Origin: a bacterium
Lineage (GTDB): Bacteria > Vulcanimicrobiota > Vulcanimicrobiia > Vulcanimicrobiales > SCRA01
Assembly (NCBI GenBank): GCA_004298675.1
Contig: SCRI01000047.1
Coordinates: forward strand, 1-64,000
DNA: 64,000 bases
Direction of reading: 5' to 3'
Part shown: one piece after another, positions 48,606 through 56,052 of the stretch
Layout of the letters: each line of letters begins with the position of its first letter
Numbering within the stretch: position 1 is the stretch's first letter
Made by a program: the position numbers and the translations under genes
Notes under the pieces: generated by a model
Database searches by the model: none
The model's input: the letters and a program-made list of their open reading frames with translations, nothing else
Told to the model about the DNA's origin: nothing

Positions 48606-49594
48606 GGCGCGCGACGCTCTCGCTCGACCTCGACAACCGCTGGTCCTACATGAAGACGCACGGCGACGCGGGCTGGGAGACCTTTCCGTCGTACCTGGAG
48701 ACGCTCGTGCCGCGCGCCCTGGAACTGCTCGCGCGGCAGCGCGTGCGTATCACCGTCTTCGTGGTGGGGCAGGATGCCGCGCTCGACCGCAACGCGGCAC
48801 CGCTGCGCGCGTTGGCGCTGGCCGGACACGAGATCGGCAACCACTCGTTCCATCACGAGCCCTGGCTCCATCTACGCCGCGAGGACGAGATCGAGCGCGA
48901 GCTGGCCAGGGCGGAGGCAGCCATCGAGCACGCTACCGGCGTGCGCCCGCAAGGGTTCCGCGGACCGGGCTTTACGCGCTCGCATACCATCCTGCGGGTC
49001 TTGGCGCGCCGCGGCTACCGTTACGATGCCTCGACTCTAGCCACCTGGATCGGACCGTTGGCGCGGGCCTACTACTTTCGCTCGATGCGCCTGCAGGAGC
49101 GCGAGAAGCGGGAACGCGCGGCCCTCTTCGGCCGTTGGAGCGACGGACTTCAGCCCAATCGCTGCCACTTCGAGCGCACCGCGGCGGGGGACATCGCCGT
49201 AGTGCCCGTGACGGTGATGCCGCTCCTGCGCGTGCCGATTCACGTCAGCTACCTGCTGTATCTCGCGGTTGTCGACCCAGCGCTGGCGCGCGCCTATTTC
49301 GACGCCGCGCTCGCGCTGTGCCGCTTGACCGGAACGGAGCCGTCGATCCTGCTCCATCCGCTGGACTTCCTGGACGCCGGCGACGCACCGGAGCTGATGT
49401 TCTTCCCCGCGCTGCAGCTCCCACTCGCGACGAAGCTGGGGATCGTTTCCTACGTCTGCGAGCGGCTTACCGCCGCCTACCGCGTCGGACCAATCCTGGA
49501 CTACGTGCGCCTGCGCGAGGCGCGCCCAGCTATGCCGGCTGCGCCACGCCCTCCGGAATACCGTTCGCCATCACGCGCAGATCCGCATCCGTGA
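48602..49594 (+). CDS. Polysaccharide deacetylase (NodB domain)
   Basis: A 330-aa NodB-fold protein. The catalytic Asp and metal Asp lie in LSLDLDNRWSY, the metal His pair in IGNHSFHHEPWLH, and the RGPGFTRSH motif matches MT3. It lacks a signal peptide, so it acts in the cytoplasm, perhaps on a lipid-linked glycan precursor. ATG 48602 overlaps the FAD gene. Its 3' end overlaps the convergent leuA by 65 bp, an unusually long overlap for this window. The C-terminal 30 residues are Pro/Arg-rich. Confidence 0.85.
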   Translation: MRRATLSLDLDNRWSYMKTHGDAGWETFPSYLETLVPRALELLARQRVRITVFVVGQDAALDRNAAPLRALALAGHEIGNHSFHHEPWLHLRREDEIERELARAEAAIEHATGVRPQGFRGPGFTRSHTILRVLARRGYRYDASTLATWIGPLARAYYFRSMRLQEREKRERAALFGRWSDGLQPNRCHFERTAAGDIAVVPVTVMPLLRVPIHVSYLLYLAVVDPALARAYFDAALALCRLTGTEPSILLHPLDFLDAGDAPELMFFPALQLPLATKLGIVSYVCERLTAAYRVGPILDYVRLREARPAMPAAPRPPEYRSPSRADPHP

Positions 49595-50696
49595 TCTCGC
49601 GTTTGGTGTTGGCCAGCTCCAGGAACGACTGGTAGAAGCGCTCCATCTCGCTCTGTTCGAAGGCGTAGCCGAGCTGTTCCAGACGTACGCGAATAGCGTG
49701 GCGCCCGGATTGACGCCCCAAATGCAGGCGCGCCGCCTGCCGCCCCAGCAGTTCCGCTGGGAGCACTTCGTAGGTGGCGCGATGCTTGAGGACTCCATCC
49801 TGATGGATGCCGGACTCGTGCGCGAAGGCGTTGGCGCCCACGACGGCCTTGTGCTTCTGTACCGGCATATGCGTGGCACGCGCCACCATGCGGGAGAGCG
49901 CAGGGATGGCCGCCATGTCGAAGTCCACCTCGGCGCCGTAGACGTCCTGGCGCACCCGCATCGCGGCCAGCGTCTCCTCCAGCGCGCAGTTTCCGGCGCG
50001 TTCACCGATGCCGTTCACGGTGCACTCGATCTGGCGCGCCCCGGCGCGCACGGCCGCCAAGGTGTTGGCCACGGCCAGGCCTAGATCGTCGTGGCAGTGC
50101 ACGGAGAAGATCGCGCGCTCGCTCCCCCGCACGTGCTCGCGCAGGTACGAGATCAACGCGGCGTACTCGTGCGGCTGCGTGTAGCCCACGGTATCAGGGA
50201 CGTTGAGCGTGAGGGCCCCGGCATCGAGCGCCGTTTGGAAGACCTCGACCAGGAAGTCGCGCTCGCTGCGGGTGGCATCCTCGGCTGAGAACTCCACGTC
50301 CGGACAGAGCGTGTGCGCGCTGCGCACCGAGCGCTCCACGGCCGCCAAGACCTGGCGCGGAGTCATGCGCAGCTTGTGCTCCATGTGGATGGGGCTGGTG
50401 GCGATGAAGACGTGGATGCGCGGCGCGCGGGCGTGGCGCAGTGACTCCCACGCGGCATGAATGTCGCCGTCGACGGCGCGGGCGAGGGAGGCGACCGTGC
50501 TGTGCGTCACGCTCGCGGCGATCTCCGCCACCGACGCCGCGACGGCGGGCGAGGCCGCCGAGAAGCCGGCCTCGATCACGTCGGTGCCGGCGCGATCGAG
50601 CGCGCGGGCGATGCGCAGCCGGTCGGCGGCGCGCATGGCAGCGCCCGGAGATTGCTCCCCGTCGCGCAACGTGGTATCGAAGACGCGGACCTTCAT
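49530..50696 (-). CDS. leuA: 2-isopropylmalate synthase, short form lacking the regulatory domain
   Basis: A 388-aa DRE-TIM metallolyase that condenses acetyl-CoA with 2-ketoisovalerate. It begins [20 protein letters not shown]; further motifs are [61 protein letters not shown] and [15 protein letters not shown]. Full-length LeuA is about 510 aa; the C-terminal leucine-binding regulatory domain is absent. Homocitrate or citramalate synthase could look similar, but the setting opposite ilvBNC-leuCD supports LeuA. ATG 50696 is right for the family; a longer upstream frame would run through the attenuator. Expression is preceded by a Leu-rich leader and terminator. Confidence 0.88.
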
Positions 50697-50710
50697 CGTT
50701 TGTACCTCGT

Positions 50711-50750
50711 GAAAAAAGCGAAACGCGCCCCCGCCGAAGCGGGGGCGCGT
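50711..50750 (-). terminator. Attenuator terminator upstream of leuA
   Basis: A perfect 12-bp GC-rich stem (50750-50739 with 50734-50723) and a 4-base loop, followed on the minus strand by TTCGCTTTTTTC. It ends just 15 bp before the leuA start codon, so in the absence of antitermination it would stop transcription before leuA. Located 28 bp after the stop codon of the Leu-rich leader ORF. Confidence 0.93.
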
Positions 50751-50778
50751 CTCATACTGTCTTATGGGTGCGCAAACC

Positions 50779-50841
50779 TCAGCCGCTTCGTCGTATGACG
50801 CCGTCCGTAAGGAGAAGTCGGCCAAGGAGCTGCATGCGCAT
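50779..50841 (-). CDS. Leucine-rich leader peptide (leuA attenuator)
   Basis: A 20-codon ORF, ATG to TGA, with five Leu codons clustered as LLGRLLL (CTC CTT ... CTT CTC CTT), then Thr-Asp-Gly-Val-Ile. Its position, size and Leu run upstream of a terminator and leuA are those of a leu operon leader peptide: scarce leucine would stall the ribosome on the Leu codons and favour antitermination. No clear ribosome binding site is seen; a TG-extended -10 TACACT on the minus strand (50857-50852) would start the RNA very close to the ATG. The antiterminator pairing could not be drawn with confidence. Confidence 0.75.
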   Translation of the reverse strand: MRMQLLGRLLLTDGVIRRSG

Positions 50842-50913
50842 CTTATGGTGGAGTGTAGCACGCAACGTCAAGCACGGCGACGCCGCGCTCGAAATATCCC
50901 TCGCGCGAGGAGG

Positions 50914-50943
50914 TTGACATGTCGAACGCATGGGCAGTACCAT
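50914..50943 (+). promoter_or_regulatory. Candidate promoter of the ilvB leader
   Basis: TTGACA (50914-50919), an 18-bp spacer, TACCAT (50938-50943). If used, transcription would begin near 50950, just before the second in-frame ATG (50954) of the leader peptide. The -35 is strong; the -10 is weak. Confidence 0.45.
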
Positions 50944-51019
50944 GGCTTCAACAATGTCGTCGCAAATTCTCGTCGTTAGCCTTATTCTTGTCCGCCTCGA
51001 AGGGGGTCGGTGGGGATAG
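50942..51019 (+). CDS. Ile/Leu/Val-rich leader peptide (ilvB attenuator)
   Basis: A 25-codon ORF ending in TAG. Its core is ILVVSLILVRL, eleven residues of which nine are branched-chain. ATG 50942 and ATG 50954 are both in frame; the second fits better if the promoter at 50914 is used. It lies 31 bp upstream of an intrinsic terminator and 82 bp upstream of the ilvB start. This is the classical layout of an ilv leader peptide (as in enteric ilvBN or ilvGMEDA), where shortage of Ile, Leu or Val stalls the ribosome and lets transcription proceed. A 5-bp hairpin CTGTC/GACAG (51023-51036) lies between leader and terminator. Confidence 0.8.
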   Translation: MASTMSSQILVVSLILVRLEGGRWG

Positions 51020-51050
51020 GCACTGTCTGACGACAGAATACGAAAGTAGA

Positions 51051-51088
51051 AGCCGCCTCGCCGACCAAGCGAGGCGGCTTTCTTTTTT
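51051..51088 (+). terminator. Attenuator terminator upstream of ilvB
   Basis: A perfect 11-bp stem AGCCGCCTCGC (51051-51061) with GCGAGGCGGCT (51069-51079), a 7-nt loop, then TTTCTTTTTT. It ends 13 bp before the ilvB start codon, directly before its ribosome binding site. Confidence 0.94.
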
Positions 51089-51101
51089 CACTGGAGGTAT
51101 C

Positions 51102-52796
51102 GTGGAGATCACCGGTTCGCGTCTCTTGCTTGCGGTACTCGAGGCCCATGGGATCGACTCCGTCTTCGGCTATCCCGGGGGCGCCATCATGCCGTTTTAC
51201 GATGCGCTACTGCACGGCGGTCTCACGCACTATCTCGTCCGCCACGAGCAGGGGGCGGCCTTTGCCGCCGGCGCCTACGCCCGGACGACGGGGCGTTTGG
51301 GCGTCTGCGTCTCGACCAGCGGTCCCGGTGCCACCAACCTCGTGACCGGGTTGCTGGACGCGATGATGGACAGTGCACCGGTCTTGGCTATTACGGGCCA
51401 AGTGCGCTCGGCGCTCATGGGCAGCGATGGGTTTCAAGAGGCCGATGTGGTCGGCATCACCAGCCCTTGTACGAAGTTCAACGCGCTGGTGACGCGCGCG
51501 GCCGACATCCCCGCCACCGTGGAGAAGGCGATCCGTATCGCCACGTCTGGGCGCCCGGGTCCGGTGCTCGTCGACGTCACCACCGACGCGCTCAAGGAGC
51601 GGCTGACCTGGGATGCTCCGTTGACGCGCTCCGCCGAGCGTAGCGGCTACGGCGAGGGCGGGCGTGCGCCGGAGCTCAACATCGCGGCCACGGAGGCGAT
51701 CGCGGCGCTGGCGCGCGCCGAGCGCCCCGTCATCATCGTGGGCGGCGGCACCCGCATCGCGGGCGTCGTGCAGGAGTTCCGGCGCCTGGCGGCACTGATC
51801 GGCGCCCCGGTCGTGGCGACGCTCAACGGTCTGGGAACGGCCGATCCGAGTGACGCGCGCTATCTCGGCATGTTCGGTATGCATGGCCACAAAGGTGCCA
51901 ACCTCGCCGTCACGCGTGCCGACTGCATGCTGGCGCTGGGCGTGCGCTTCGACGACCGCGTCACCGGCGACGTCTCGAAGTTCGGACGCAATGCCACGGT
52001 CATTCACTGCGACATCGATCCCTCCGAGATCGGTAAGATCATCCACGTGGACGTCCCCGTGGTGGGCGATCTGCGCGAGACGATCGCGGTGCTGACGGAG
52101 GTGGCTCAGGTTGCGACGATGCCGTCCTACGAGCCGTGGTTGGCCGAGGTAGCAGCGCTGAAGCGGCCGCTGCCGCCGGCGCGCCACGAGAACGGCGAAC
52201 TCTCGGCCACCGACGTACTGGACGCGCTGGCGGCACTGATGGAGCCCGGCACCGTCGTCACGACCGACGTCGGGCAGCACCAGATGTGGGCGGCACAGCG
52301 CGTGCGCTTGGAGAGCAGCCGTGACTTCCTGACCTCCGCCGGTCTGGGGGCGATGGGCTTCGGCCTGCCCGCGGCGGTGGGGGCGCAGGTGGCCCGCCCG
52401 GGCGATACCGTGGTCGCCATTCTCGGCGACGGCGGTTTCCAGATGACGATGCACGAGCTGGCGACGATTCGCCGCTACGAGTTGCCCATCAAGATCGTGG
52501 TGATGGACAACCGTCATCTCGGCATGGTGCGGCAGTGGCAAGAGCTCTTCTACGAGCGCCGCATCGTGGCCACCGATCTCTACGACAATCCGGAGTTCTG
52601 TACGCTGGCGTCGGCGTACGGTATCGCCTCCACGCGCGTTGACCGCCCGGAGGACCTCCATCGCGCCTTGCGCGAGATGCTCGACTCGAGCGGCGCCTTT
52701 CTACTGCACTGCGCCTGCTTTCCCACGGAGAACTGCTTTCCGATGGTACCGGCGGGGCGCCACATCGACGAGATGCTGGAGAGAACATCGGCATGA
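51102..52796 (+). CDS. ilvB: Acetolactate synthase large subunit
   Basis: A 564-aa ThDP enzyme, the first common step of valine, leucine and isoleucine synthesis. GYPGGAIMPFYDALLHGG and VRHEQGAAFAAGAYAR carry the catalytic Glu; STSGPGATNLVTGL and ITGQV follow. The ThDP motif is ILGDGGFQMTMHELATI (GDGx with downstream Asn in VVMDNRHLGMVRQWQ). The start GTG 51102 is preceded by GGAGG; the longer upstream frame would read through the attenuator. Stop overlaps ilvN by ATGA. Start of the ilvB-ilvN-ilvC-leuC-leuD operon. Confidence 0.96.
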   Translation: MEITGSRLLLAVLEAHGIDSVFGYPGGAIMPFYDALLHGGLTHYLVRHEQGAAFAAGAYARTTGRLGVCVSTSGPGATNLVTGLLDAMMDSAPVLAITGQVRSALMGSDGFQEADVVGITSPCTKFNALVTRAADIPATVEKAIRIATSGRPGPVLVDVTTDALKERLTWDAPLTRSAERSGYGEGGRAPELNIAATEAIAALARAERPVIIVGGGTRIAGVVQEFRRLAALIGAPVVATLNGLGTADPSDARYLGMFGMHGHKGANLAVTRADCMLALGVRFDDRVTGDVSKFGRNATVIHCDIDPSEIGKIIHVDVPVVGDLRETIAVLTEVAQVATMPSYEPWLAEVAALKRPLPPARHENGELSATDVLDALAALMEPGTVVTTDVGQHQMWAAQRVRLESSRDFLTSAGLGAMGFGLPAAVGAQVARPGDTVVAILGDGGFQMTMHELATIRRYELPIKIVVMDNRHLGMVRQWQELFYERRIVATDLYDNPEFCTLASAYGIASTRVDRPEDLHRALREMLDSSGAFLLHCACFPTENCFPMVPAGRHIDEMLERTSA

Positions 52797-53011
52797 GCGA
52801 ACGACTCGAACTCCCATTGCGCGACCAACGCGCGCTCGCCAAGGTATTGGCGGCGCTGACGCGCACGGGCTGCACCGCCACCAGCGTGCGCGCTAGTTTC
52901 GGCGATAGTTACTCCGCCGTCATCACGATCGAGGGGCCCGCGCTCAACCTGCGGCGCCTGTCAGCACTAATCACGCGTCTTCTTTCAACCCACCAAGAGG
53001 AGTACCGATGA
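52793..53011 (+). CDS. ilvN: Small acetolactate synthase regulatory-type subunit (IlvM/IlvN-like)
   Basis: A 72-aa protein lodged between ilvB and ilvC with ATGA overlaps on both sides. [20 protein letters not shown] followed by [20 protein letters not shown] fits a single ACT-like beta-alpha-beta unit. It is much shorter than IlvN/IlvH (~160 aa) and closer to IlvM (~85 aa). By position it should stabilise or regulate IlvB. Sequence similarity to known small subunits is weak by eye. Confidence 0.65.
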
Positions 53012-54078
53012 ACGTCCAACACGCCCAAACCACCGACCCGGGGAGCCTGCGCGGAAAACGCATCGGCATCATTGGATACGGCAGTCAAGGCCGCGCGCAC
53101 GCGCTCAACCTCCGGGACTCCGGTTGCGACGTCGTCGTCGGACTTCGCACCGGAGGCGCCTCCTACGTCAAAGCGATCGCCGACGGCTGGAGCCCCGTCA
53201 CGCCGGCCGACGCCGCCACGCGCGACGTCGTCATGATGCTCACCCCCGACGAAGAGACACCGCGTATTTACCGCGAGCAGATCGGCCCCAACTTGCGCCC
53301 CGGCGCCGCGTTGGGCTTTGCGCACGGGTTCTCCATCCATTTCAACTACGTGCAGGCACCGCCGGCCGTGAGCGTTTTCATGGTGGCGCCGAAGGCCCCC
53401 GGACGCTTGGTGCGCAGCGAGTACGAAGCCGGGCGCGGCGTCCCGTGCTTGATCGCGGTGGCGCAAGACCCGCACGGTGATGCGCTCGAGATCGCGCGCA
53501 ACTGGGCGATCGGCATCGGTGCCGGCCGGGCCGCGATCATCCAGACCAACTTCCGCGAGGAGACGGAGACCGATCTCTTTGGCGAGCAAGCCGTGCTCTG
53601 CGGCGGACTCTCGGCGTTGGTCACCGCCGGCTTCGAGACGCTCGTGAGTGCCGGCTACGCGCCGGAGATGGCTTACTTCGAGTGCTGCCATGAGTTGAAG
53701 CTCATCGTCGATCTGGTCTACGAGCGCGGCATCACGGGCATGCGCGACGGTATCTCGAATACGGCCAAGTATGGTGACTACACGCGCGGCAGCCGTATCG
53801 TCACCGAGCAGACGCGCCAGGCCATGCGCCAGATCCTGGGTGAGATCACCTCCGGTGCCTTCGCCAAGGAGTGGATGGCCGAGTGTGAGGCTGGCAAGCC
53901 GCGCTTCCAGCGCTTCCGCGAGGAGGGCCACCGCCATCAGATCGAGGGTGTGGGTGCGGAGTTGCGCAGCTTCATGCCCTGGATGGCGGCTCCCGAGCCG
54001 CCGCGTTCCGAGACGCCGGCGCCCGCGCTCGATGCGAGCCATGCGATGCCGGAAGTCGGCGCTTTTATGAACGAGTAG
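53008..54078 (+). CDS. ilvC: Ketol-acid reductoisomerase (class I)
   Basis: A 356-aa enzyme that isomerises and reduces acetolactate or acetohydroxybutyrate. The Rossmann motif is [20 protein letters not shown]; the cofactor loop reads [12 protein letters not shown], where the first Ser of the usual NADPH-type loop is Gly, so NADH use is possible. The Mg2+ site lies in [20 protein letters not shown] and [19 protein letters not shown]-terminal extra tail of ~25 residues is Pro/Ala-rich. An 82-bp gap with no strong terminator separates it from leuC. Confidence 0.96.
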
Positions 54079-54160: not shown

Positions 54161-55528
54161 GTGCGAACGCTTTTCGAGAAGATCTGGGATAGCCACGTGG
54201 TCGAGGAGCTGCCGGGCGGTAACGCACTGGTGTTCATCGACCGCGTCGTTGCCCACGAGATCACCACCCCTACCGGGGCACTCGAGATCGAGCAGAATTT
54301 CGGTGACCGCATCTACGATCCGGCACGTATCGTGGCCCTCAACGATCACGTGTCGCCCGCCAAGGACACCGAGACGGCGATCCAGGCACAGGTGCTGCGC
54401 ACGTGGGCGAAACGTCACGGCATCAAGCTCTACGACATCGGCGATAACGGCATCTGCCACGTGGTGGTGCCCGAGCGCGGCTTGGTCGAGCCCGGAATGA
54501 CGCTCTGCTGCGGTGACAGCCACACCTGCACGCTGGGCGCGTTCGGAGCCTTTGGGCTAGGCATCGGCAGCACCGCCCAAGGCGGGGCGATGCTCGCCGG
54601 CTGCTTGATCTTGCAGCGGCCGAAAGTCTACGGCATCGAGCTGCGCGGCAGTCTCGGCCACGGTGCGACGGCGAAGGATCTCGCGCTGACGGTCGTCGCG
54701 CGTTTGGGCTTCCGCGGAGCGACCGGTTACGTCATCGAGTATTTCGGCGCGGGGGTGGCCTCGCTCTCGATGGAGGAGCGCATGACGCTCTGCAACATGG
54801 CCATCGAAGCCGGTGCCACTTCCGGTCTCTGCCCGGTCGACGAGACGACGTTCTCGTATCTGGCGCAGACCGAATACCAGCGCGGCGTGCCCGATTGGGA
54901 GAGCCGCGTCGAGCGTTGGCGGGCCCTGCGCGCCGACGACGACGCCGAGTACGACGCCGTCGCGCGTATCGATCTCTCGGAGCTGCGTCCGCTGGTCTCG
55001 TGGGGGACCAACCCCGGCGAGTGTTCACCGATCGACGGCGCCGTGCCGGCCGATGCACCCCAGGCTTCGCTCGAGTACATGGGGCTCACGCCTGGACAGA
55101 CGCTGGACGGGCTCGCCATCGATCAAGCCTTCATCGGCTCCTGTACCAACGCGCGCCTCTCCGATCTGCGTGCCGCCGCTGCGGTGCTGCGCGGCCGCCA
55201 CGTGACCGTGCCCACGATCGTCACCCCAGGCTCGCAGGCGGTGCGCCGGGCCGCCGAACGTGAGGGTCTCCACGATATCTTTCAAGACGCCGGGGCGCTC
55301 TGGACGCACTCCTCGTGCGGGCCGTGCCTGGGAATGTCGATGGGTGTCCTGGCTCCAAAGATGCGCTGCGTCTCGTCGTCGAACCGCAATTTCCCGGGGC
55401 GCATGGGAGCGGGCGGACGCGTGCACTTGGCCTCGCCGACGGTAGTCGCCGCGAGCGCCGTAGCCGGATGCATCACCGCACCCGATCGACTCGCCGCACG
55501 GCATGCCGTGGCCGGTGGTGCCGCATGA
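54161..55528 (+). CDS. leuC: 3-isopropylmalate dehydratase large subunit
   Basis: A 455-aa aconitase-family Fe-S enzyme. The cluster Cys residues are in GSCTNARLSDLRAA and SSCGPCLGMSMGVL; the third is in CCGDSHTCTLGAFGAFGLGI with the catalytic His. It ends NRNFPGRMGAGGRVHLASP, typical of LeuC. The GTG start follows CGGAGAT. leuD overlaps by ATGA. Together with LeuD it isomerises 2-isopropylmalate. Confidence 0.95.
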   Translation: MRTLFEKIWDSHVVEELPGGNALVFIDRVVAHEITTPTGALEIEQNFGDRIYDPARIVALNDHVSPAKDTETAIQAQVLRTWAKRHGIKLYDIGDNGICHVVVPERGLVEPGMTLCCGDSHTCTLGAFGAFGLGIGSTAQGGAMLAGCLILQRPKVYGIELRGSLGHGATAKDLALTVVARLGFRGATGYVIEYFGAGVASLSMEERMTLCNMAIEAGATSGLCPVDETTFSYLAQTEYQRGVPDWESRVERWRALRADDDAEYDAVARIDLSELRPLVSWGTNPGECSPIDGAVPADAPQASLEYMGLTPGQTLDGLAIDQAFIGSCTNARLSDLRAAAAVLRGRHVTVPTIVTPGSQAVRRAAEREGLHDIFQDAGALWTHSSCGPCLGMSMGVLAPKMRCVSSSNRNFPGRMGAGGRVHLASPTVVAASAVAGCITAPDRLAARHAVAGGAA

Positions 55529-56052
55529 ACTTCGAAGGCGAGATTCTCCTCGTCGACCGCGCCAACGTCGATACCGACCAGATCATCCCTGCGCGCTACC
55601 TCACCGGCATCACGAAGAGCGGCTACGGACAACACCTCTTCACGGGCATGCCGGGCGGTACGGAGTTGCTCCAAAGCAAGCCCGCCGCCACCATTCTGGT
55701 CGCGCGCGAGAATTTCGGCTGCGGAAGCTCGCGCGAGCACGCCGCGTGGGCGATCGCCGATCGCGGCTTCCGGGCGGTGATCGCGGAGAGCTTCGCGCGC
55801 ATCTTCCTCGAGAACGCCTACACCAACGGGGTGGTGCCTATCGTGCTGCCCAAGGCCGAGGTGGAGGCGTTGGCGGCGTGCGGACGCGCGCGCATCGACG
55901 TCGCCGGGCAGTTCGTCGAGGCGTTGGGGCGGCGCATCCCCTTCGATCTCGATCCGCTGCGTAAGTCCTTCGTGCTCGAAGGCGGCTTCATGGAGTTCTT
56001 AGCCAAGAAAGTCGAGCTAGTGCGCGCGTGGGAGCGCGCCGCGGCCTCCTAA
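55525..56052 (+). CDS. leuD: 3-isopropylmalate dehydratase small subunit
   Basis: A 175-aa swivelling subunit. [32 protein letters not shown] and [20 protein letters not shown] are diagnostic of LeuD. ATG 55525 overlaps the leuC stop. Its TAA overlaps the stop of the convergent GGDEF gene. leuB is not in the window. Confidence 0.96.

Follow-up and report, generated by a model that had tools for sequence, protein, structure and literature searches.

The stretch of DNA that we analysed, referred to here as the window, is 64,000 nucleotides long and belongs to a genome from the little-studied order of Vulcanimicrobium, in the phylum Eremiobacterota, to which Vulcanimicrobium alpinus WC8-2 is assigned (PMC9758169). 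It carries an operon of branched-chain amino acid genes headed by ilvB, with ilvC, leuC and leuD downstream, and a leuA-like gene that diverges from it on the opposite strand (Table 1). The slot for a regulatory subunit between ilvB and ilvC holds just one ORF of 72 amino acids, which is of IlvM-like length. The ilvB-leuA intergenic region contains a leader ORF and a set of alternative hairpins on either side.

Table 1. Features of the ilvB-leuA region, with positions in the window and the basis on which each was assigned.
Feature	Position	Strand	Details and basis
Promoter-like site	50914-50943	+	TTGACA (50914-50919), 18-nt spacer, TACCAT (50938-50943); motif search
ilvB leader peptide ORF, MSSQILVVSLILVRLEGGRWG	50954-51019	+	21 codons; ATG 50954, TAG 51017-51019; read directly
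Control codons, ILVVSLILVRL	50966-50998	+	Read directly
Element 1 (approximate), possible protector with element 2	50992-50998	+	Predicted folds
Element 2, antiterminator 5' arm, GGTCGGTGGGG	51005-51015	+	Helix search, covariation, re-read
Element 3, antiterminator 3' arm, CCTCGCCGACC	51056-51066	+	Overlaps terminator 5' arm and loop
Intrinsic terminator, 11-bp stem and T-rich tail	51050-51088	+	51050-51060 x 51070-51080; read directly; covariation
ilvB, acetolactate synthase large subunit	51102-52796	+	GTG start; GGAGG at 51093-51097; domain search
72-aa ORF, probably a short IlvM/N-like regulatory subunit	52793-53011	+	Position and sequence only
ilvC	53008-54078	+	Domain search
leuC and leuD	54161-56052	+	leuC 54161-55528, leuD to 56052; domain search
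Divergent leucine leader before leuA, MRMQLLGRLLLTDGVIRRSG	50779-50841	-	Read directly; relatives compared
leuA antiterminator, CGAAGCGG x CCGCTTCG	50735-50790	-	50790-50783 x 50742-50735, 8 bp; re-read
leuA leader terminator, then T-run	50719-50754	-	Terminator search
leuA-like gene, 2-isopropylmalate synthase family	49530-50696	-	HMGL-like and homocitrate-synthase-type C domain

The core of the ilvB leader peptide was read directly at the place where a sequence-only reading of the window had put an Ile/Leu/Val leader, and nine of its eleven residues are indeed I, L or V. The window has 352 short ATG ORFs of 12-45 amino acids, counting both strands, and of these the leader alone has eight or more I/L/V per 11 residues. 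Its start is kept within the genus, and every ilvB leader found among the relatives compared encodes an I/L/V-rich peptide. Judged by codon content, it is fair to suppose that all three amino acids would control the operon. Synonymous codon use sets the 22 ilvB leaders of the order apart from the ilvB genes: GTG supplies 0 of 72 Val codons in the leaders (against 334/949 in the genes), CTG 4 of 93 Leu codons (against 339/995), and ATT 32 of 40 Ile codons (against 91/595). Across ilvB leaders L001-L023 and L111-L117, GTG and CTG are shunned while ATT and CTT are preferred, the opposite of the trend in ilvB genes. This bias may reflect a choice of isoacceptors at control codons, the theory of which has been discussed (PMC1183508), or a constraint imposed by RNA folding.

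A search of positions 50400-51400 found a single promoter-like site, the TTGACA/TACCAT pair, whose -10 element lies 10 nt upstream of the leader ATG. Base 50914, with which the element as noted earlier began, is the first base of the -35 hexamer and falls outside the leader ORF. The spacing of the site predicts a transcription start approximately 0-6 nt before the leader ATG, and on that ground the leader mRNA is probably leaderless. In all 22 ilvB leaders of the order, TTGAC is placed 36-43 nt upstream of the leader ATG and the -10 element ends 7-13 nt upstream of it; TTGAC occurs only once more in the 6,374 upstream bases of these ilvB-first cases. A count of TTGACA at 70 of 93 loci of the wider family described below was left out of the independent evidence, since start codons had been picked by a script that favoured this motif.

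The perfect 11-bp terminator and T-run claimed to lie just before the ilvB ribosome binding site were also read in position (AAGCCGCCTCG / loop CCGACCAAG / CGAGGCGGCTT at 51050-51080, then TCTTTTTT). In the 64 kb just six terminator-like sites are strong (stem of 11 or more); three of them lie within the ilvB-leuA intergenic region, one of these three being the ilvB hairpin seen from the opposite strand. Elements 2 and 3 can pair over 11 bp, including two G-U pairs, with a duplex energy of -27.6 kcal/mol, and the possible protector formed by elements 1 and 2, for which bases immediately past the control codons could pair with element 2, appears in most predicted folds. The layout is that of a classical attenuator (1:2 / 2:3 / 3:4), the leader stop codon adjoins element 2, and the fold of the leader RNA beats 200 of 200 shuffles (z -4.4).

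Covariation was assessed in an alignment of 20 ilvB leaders, in which the top-ranking helix of an unbiased search was the terminator, followed by the 2:3 antiterminator. In the nine-pair core of the antiterminator 87% of cells are paired and the covariation is 0.311, compared with at most 0.147 when slid, and the terminator reaches 0.407, compared with at most 0.173. Both values exceed those of all 500 shuffles, a control that leaves relatedness in and overstates covariation because the sequences are related. In 15 of 22 genomes the duplex energy of the antiterminator is better than that of most shuffles; in the other seven (G007, G052, G046, G044, G047, G021 and G101) it is unremarkable. Four of the 22 terminators (G007, G052, G046 and G026) are imperfect; the script missed them, and they were picked out by eye.

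IlvB was surveyed at E <= 1e-130 in 149 genomes of the phylum and found in 34, of which 33 belong to the order. The attenuator layout is present in 32 of these 33 order members, the remaining one being a case of a contig edge. In 22 of the 33 the leader stands directly before ilvB; in the other 11, the operon is led by ilvC or lies on a short contig. Where the operon is headed by ilvC, the leader precedes ilvC and not ilvB: nine of the 11 have an I/L/V leader with TTGAC and a terminator before ilvC (in G115 with a GTG start codon). The leader before ilvC in G116 is on a separate contig, and in G128 the contig stops too early for a leader to be judged. No leader precedes the one IlvB locus of the phylum set that falls outside the order (G139), and leaders before ilvD and trpE, sought in the genus, were not found. 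Comparison of the regions upstream of ilvB within the phylum showed that the genus and the wider order retain both the I/L/V run and the terminator, which bears out the attenuator interpretation. That interpretation, as made from the sequence-only reading, comprised the leader and the terminator; the antiterminator, the promoter, the leaderless start, the divergent leuA leader and the order-wide family were absent from it and are described here.

On the minus strand, the leuA leader, antiterminator and terminator (50719-50841) mirror the ilvB attenuator across a single intergenic region. The leuA leaders are leucine-biased; leader and terminator are both kept in G002 and G003, and in G001 the leader is present and the contig stops within the terminator. 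The leaders that G044 has before ilvB (MLLTALLIVVLVLISRSSPNRLGLTTA) and before leuA (MLVTSLLLLALALVGRSASNRLGLTTA) are close paralogues that differ mainly in their control codons, which suggests duplication.

A covariance model built solely from the 20 ilvB leaders (R1) recovered held-out ilvC leaders, with E values of 6e-11 to 8e-7, as well as leuA leaders, and in many of 61 relatives it matched over its full length at loci other than ilvB. A second model (R2), made from 48 leaders, had matches at E <= 1e-4 in 75 of 148 phylum genomes and none at that threshold in 12 out-of-phylum genomes (best E 0.0014), the comparison loci for which came from the IlvB contig scan and included none assignable to the phylum. 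R2 also matches, less strongly (E 3e-7 to 7e-5), in four genomes of the phylum outside the order (G083, G134, G135 and G137). The window's own genome has four R2 matches at E <= 1e-4, before ilvB, leuA, ilvE (L189, G000:C18:24995-25131, with VIILL) and DAHP synthase (L192, G000:C74:25768-25905, with YFAYWYF), and 11 model matches fall in the genome presumed to be that of Vulcanimicrobium alpinus.

Across these genomes, the family element precedes leuA, ilvE, ilvA, hom, trpD, pheA/DAHP synthase and aroA, together with methionine, cysteine and sulfonate genes, and the residues of the leader change with the gene behind it. The leaders read VIILL before ilvE, SIIIASRIII before an ilvA-like gene, TTTITTTTT before homoserine dehydrogenase, FWYRRYY before EPSP synthase, HWCVHWC before trpD, MAIMAMC before a Cys/Met-metabolism PLP enzyme, CCCPC before PAPS reductase, MMMCC before sulfite reductase and MCICC before sulfonate transport, with YYYYF and YFAYWYF before prephenate dehydratase with DAHP synthase or DAHP synthase alone. 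Downstream genes were identified from cluster representatives by Pfam and NCBIfam and otherwise by blastp cluster, a few being named by eye (for example the G015, G033, G022 and G127 loci). The 104 family loci fetched comprise 84 in four pathway classes, nine before an uncharacterised gene, and 11 that were excluded for want of a clear, intact downstream gene within the four classes as drawn. The top enriched residue class equals the pathway class in 78 of the 84, a match that was not blind, as the classes were drawn after the leaders had been seen and R2 was trained on 48 sequences of which 31 belong to the same loci. None of 20,000 label permutations equalled this match, although permutation overstates the number of independent cases because many loci are orthologues. 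The codon-pathway effect is large and visible by eye, and the permutation p-value is not to be taken literally.

Nine Tyr leaders (L196, L197, L200, L208, L217, L219, L245, L173 and L266), with up to six consecutive Tyr codons, precede a gene of approximately 250 amino acids whose product has a weak, below-cutoff likeness to haem-oxygenase-like iron enzymes (Pfam E 2e-4); a PDB sequence search with this protein gave no match. A Cys leader, MCCCLC, lies before a peroxiredoxin gene (L222, G030:C19), which is not a gene of amino acid biosynthesis.

Considered together, sequence and comparison give an ORF with its control codons, a promoter-like site, two mutually exclusive and covarying hairpins and a position at the head of an operon, from which we infer the start site, leaderless translation, ribosome stalling and read-through on starvation. 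We put at roughly 0.9 the probability that the element is a ribosome-mediated transcription attenuator of ilvB-ilvM/N-ilvC-leuCD, acting on a probably leaderless leader mRNA and belonging to an order-wide family fitted to pathway. The transcript would begin a few bases from the leader AUG, and the ribosome would initiate without a Shine-Dalgarno sequence. With ample charged Ile-, Leu- and Val-tRNA, it would reach the stop codon at 51017 and mask element 2, allowing the 3:4 terminator to form and ending transcription before ilvB. When charged tRNA is scarce, the ribosome would stall in the I/L/V run and mask element 1; elements 2 and 3 would then pair, no terminator would form and the operon would be transcribed. 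In short, the I/L/V-rich peptide and the switchable hairpins very probably turn on the branched-chain genes when the branched-chain amino acids are low.

The origin of the family is a separate matter. One ancestral leaderless cassette may have been duplicated and re-coded within the order to detect Ile/Leu/Val, Leu, Ile, Thr, Met, Cys, Trp and Phe/Tyr, and may work as a general sensor of amino acids, a proposition that we regard as evenly balanced; the alternative is that the copies converged onto a constrained fold. The family alignment has common bases around the leader stop codon beyond what pairing demands.

For the ilvB element itself, a non-classical response, for instance a start-codon-dependent or peptide-specific stall in place of a codon-specific one, is very unlikely. 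It has a precedent in the ilvB leader of S. coelicolor, which resembles that of the window in appearance and in which codon mutation was without effect, regulation being independent of the candidate codons (PMC1262725); against it, relatives of the window's leader vary the peptide sequence yet keep the residue class, and that class shifts with the downstream pathway. Control of the terminator by a metabolite- or tRNA-binding RNA (a ppGpp riboswitch or T-box), with the ORF as a by-product, we consider extremely improbable. A terminator with an alternative fold does precede a biosynthetic operon here, and ppGpp riboswitches regulate ilv genes in other organisms (PMC10272879), but in a search of Rfam (ilvB-associated motifs, T-box and ppGpp riboswitch) no family reached its gathering score either in the window or at the loci of 14 relatives; a permissive scan gave no credible match either, and riboswitch and T-box were rejected on these grounds. 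Codon identity, furthermore, follows the pathway, a match that a ligand-binding RNA does not need. Hardly credible at all is translation of IlvB from 50919 with a 61-residue N-terminal extension, leader ORF and hairpin being incidental: the open frame from 50919 to 52796, within which the sequence-only reading had placed the whole element, does exist, but it is open that far only in the window's genome (645 codons from stop to stop, compared with 581-585 in three congeners) and was rejected as not conserved among these congeners, while 50919 falls within the promoter-like site, GTG 51102 is preceded by its own GGAGG, and the Pfam domain starts at residue 4 of the 51102 product.

The mechanism of the single element, ribosome-mediated attenuation, is of the textbook kind and already known for ilvB. 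The ilvGMEDA, thr, leu, trp and pheA attenuators of E. coli follow the same logic, with leader codons matched to pathway; these attenuators are not known to have sequence in common across pathways within one order, as the present family does. TTGAC at near-leaderless distance was found in none of the gammaproteobacterial ilv leaders (ilvL-like) recovered. The C. glutamicum ilvBNC attenuator works in the same mode, and its transcription start 1 nt from the leader codon (PMC11857589) resembles the near-leaderless start predicted in the window. This attenuator, or ilvB-II motif, has a short leader rich in branched-chain codons and a terminator with an overlapping antiterminator (PMC11857589, PMC10272879), but differs from the window's element in sequence and phylum, and ilvB-II occurs once per genome, whereas elements of the Vulcanimicrobium order precede many operons. 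The experimentally supported ilvB1NC attenuator of M. tuberculosis also combines a branched-chain uORF with exclusive terminator and antiterminator before ilvB, but has just four control codons (LVVI) and another sequence and phylum (PMC13236596). The predicted uORF attenuators uORFC-8-2 (cysS) and uORFC-13-1 (aroF) likewise join Cys codons or aroF to terminators (PMC8632094), each for one gene in one clade (Rhodobacterales and Acholeplasma respectively), unlike the multi-gene, order-wide family described here.

The order-wide family is of more consequence than the single element. It has no Rfam match, and a literature search, outside which most subscription journals lay, found no paper on attenuators in Eremiobacterota. 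The evidence for family and attenuator is wholly comparative, and V. alpinus WC8-2, a cultivated member of the order, makes the predictions testable. The family suggests that leaderless initiation commonly feeds into attenuation in this order, and it allows gene function to be predicted from the amino acid that a leader encodes, as for the haem-oxygenase-like gene behind the Tyr leaders. As a family captured by one model, with sensor codons that depend on pathway, it amounts to a natural codon-swap experiment in the retuning of attenuators.
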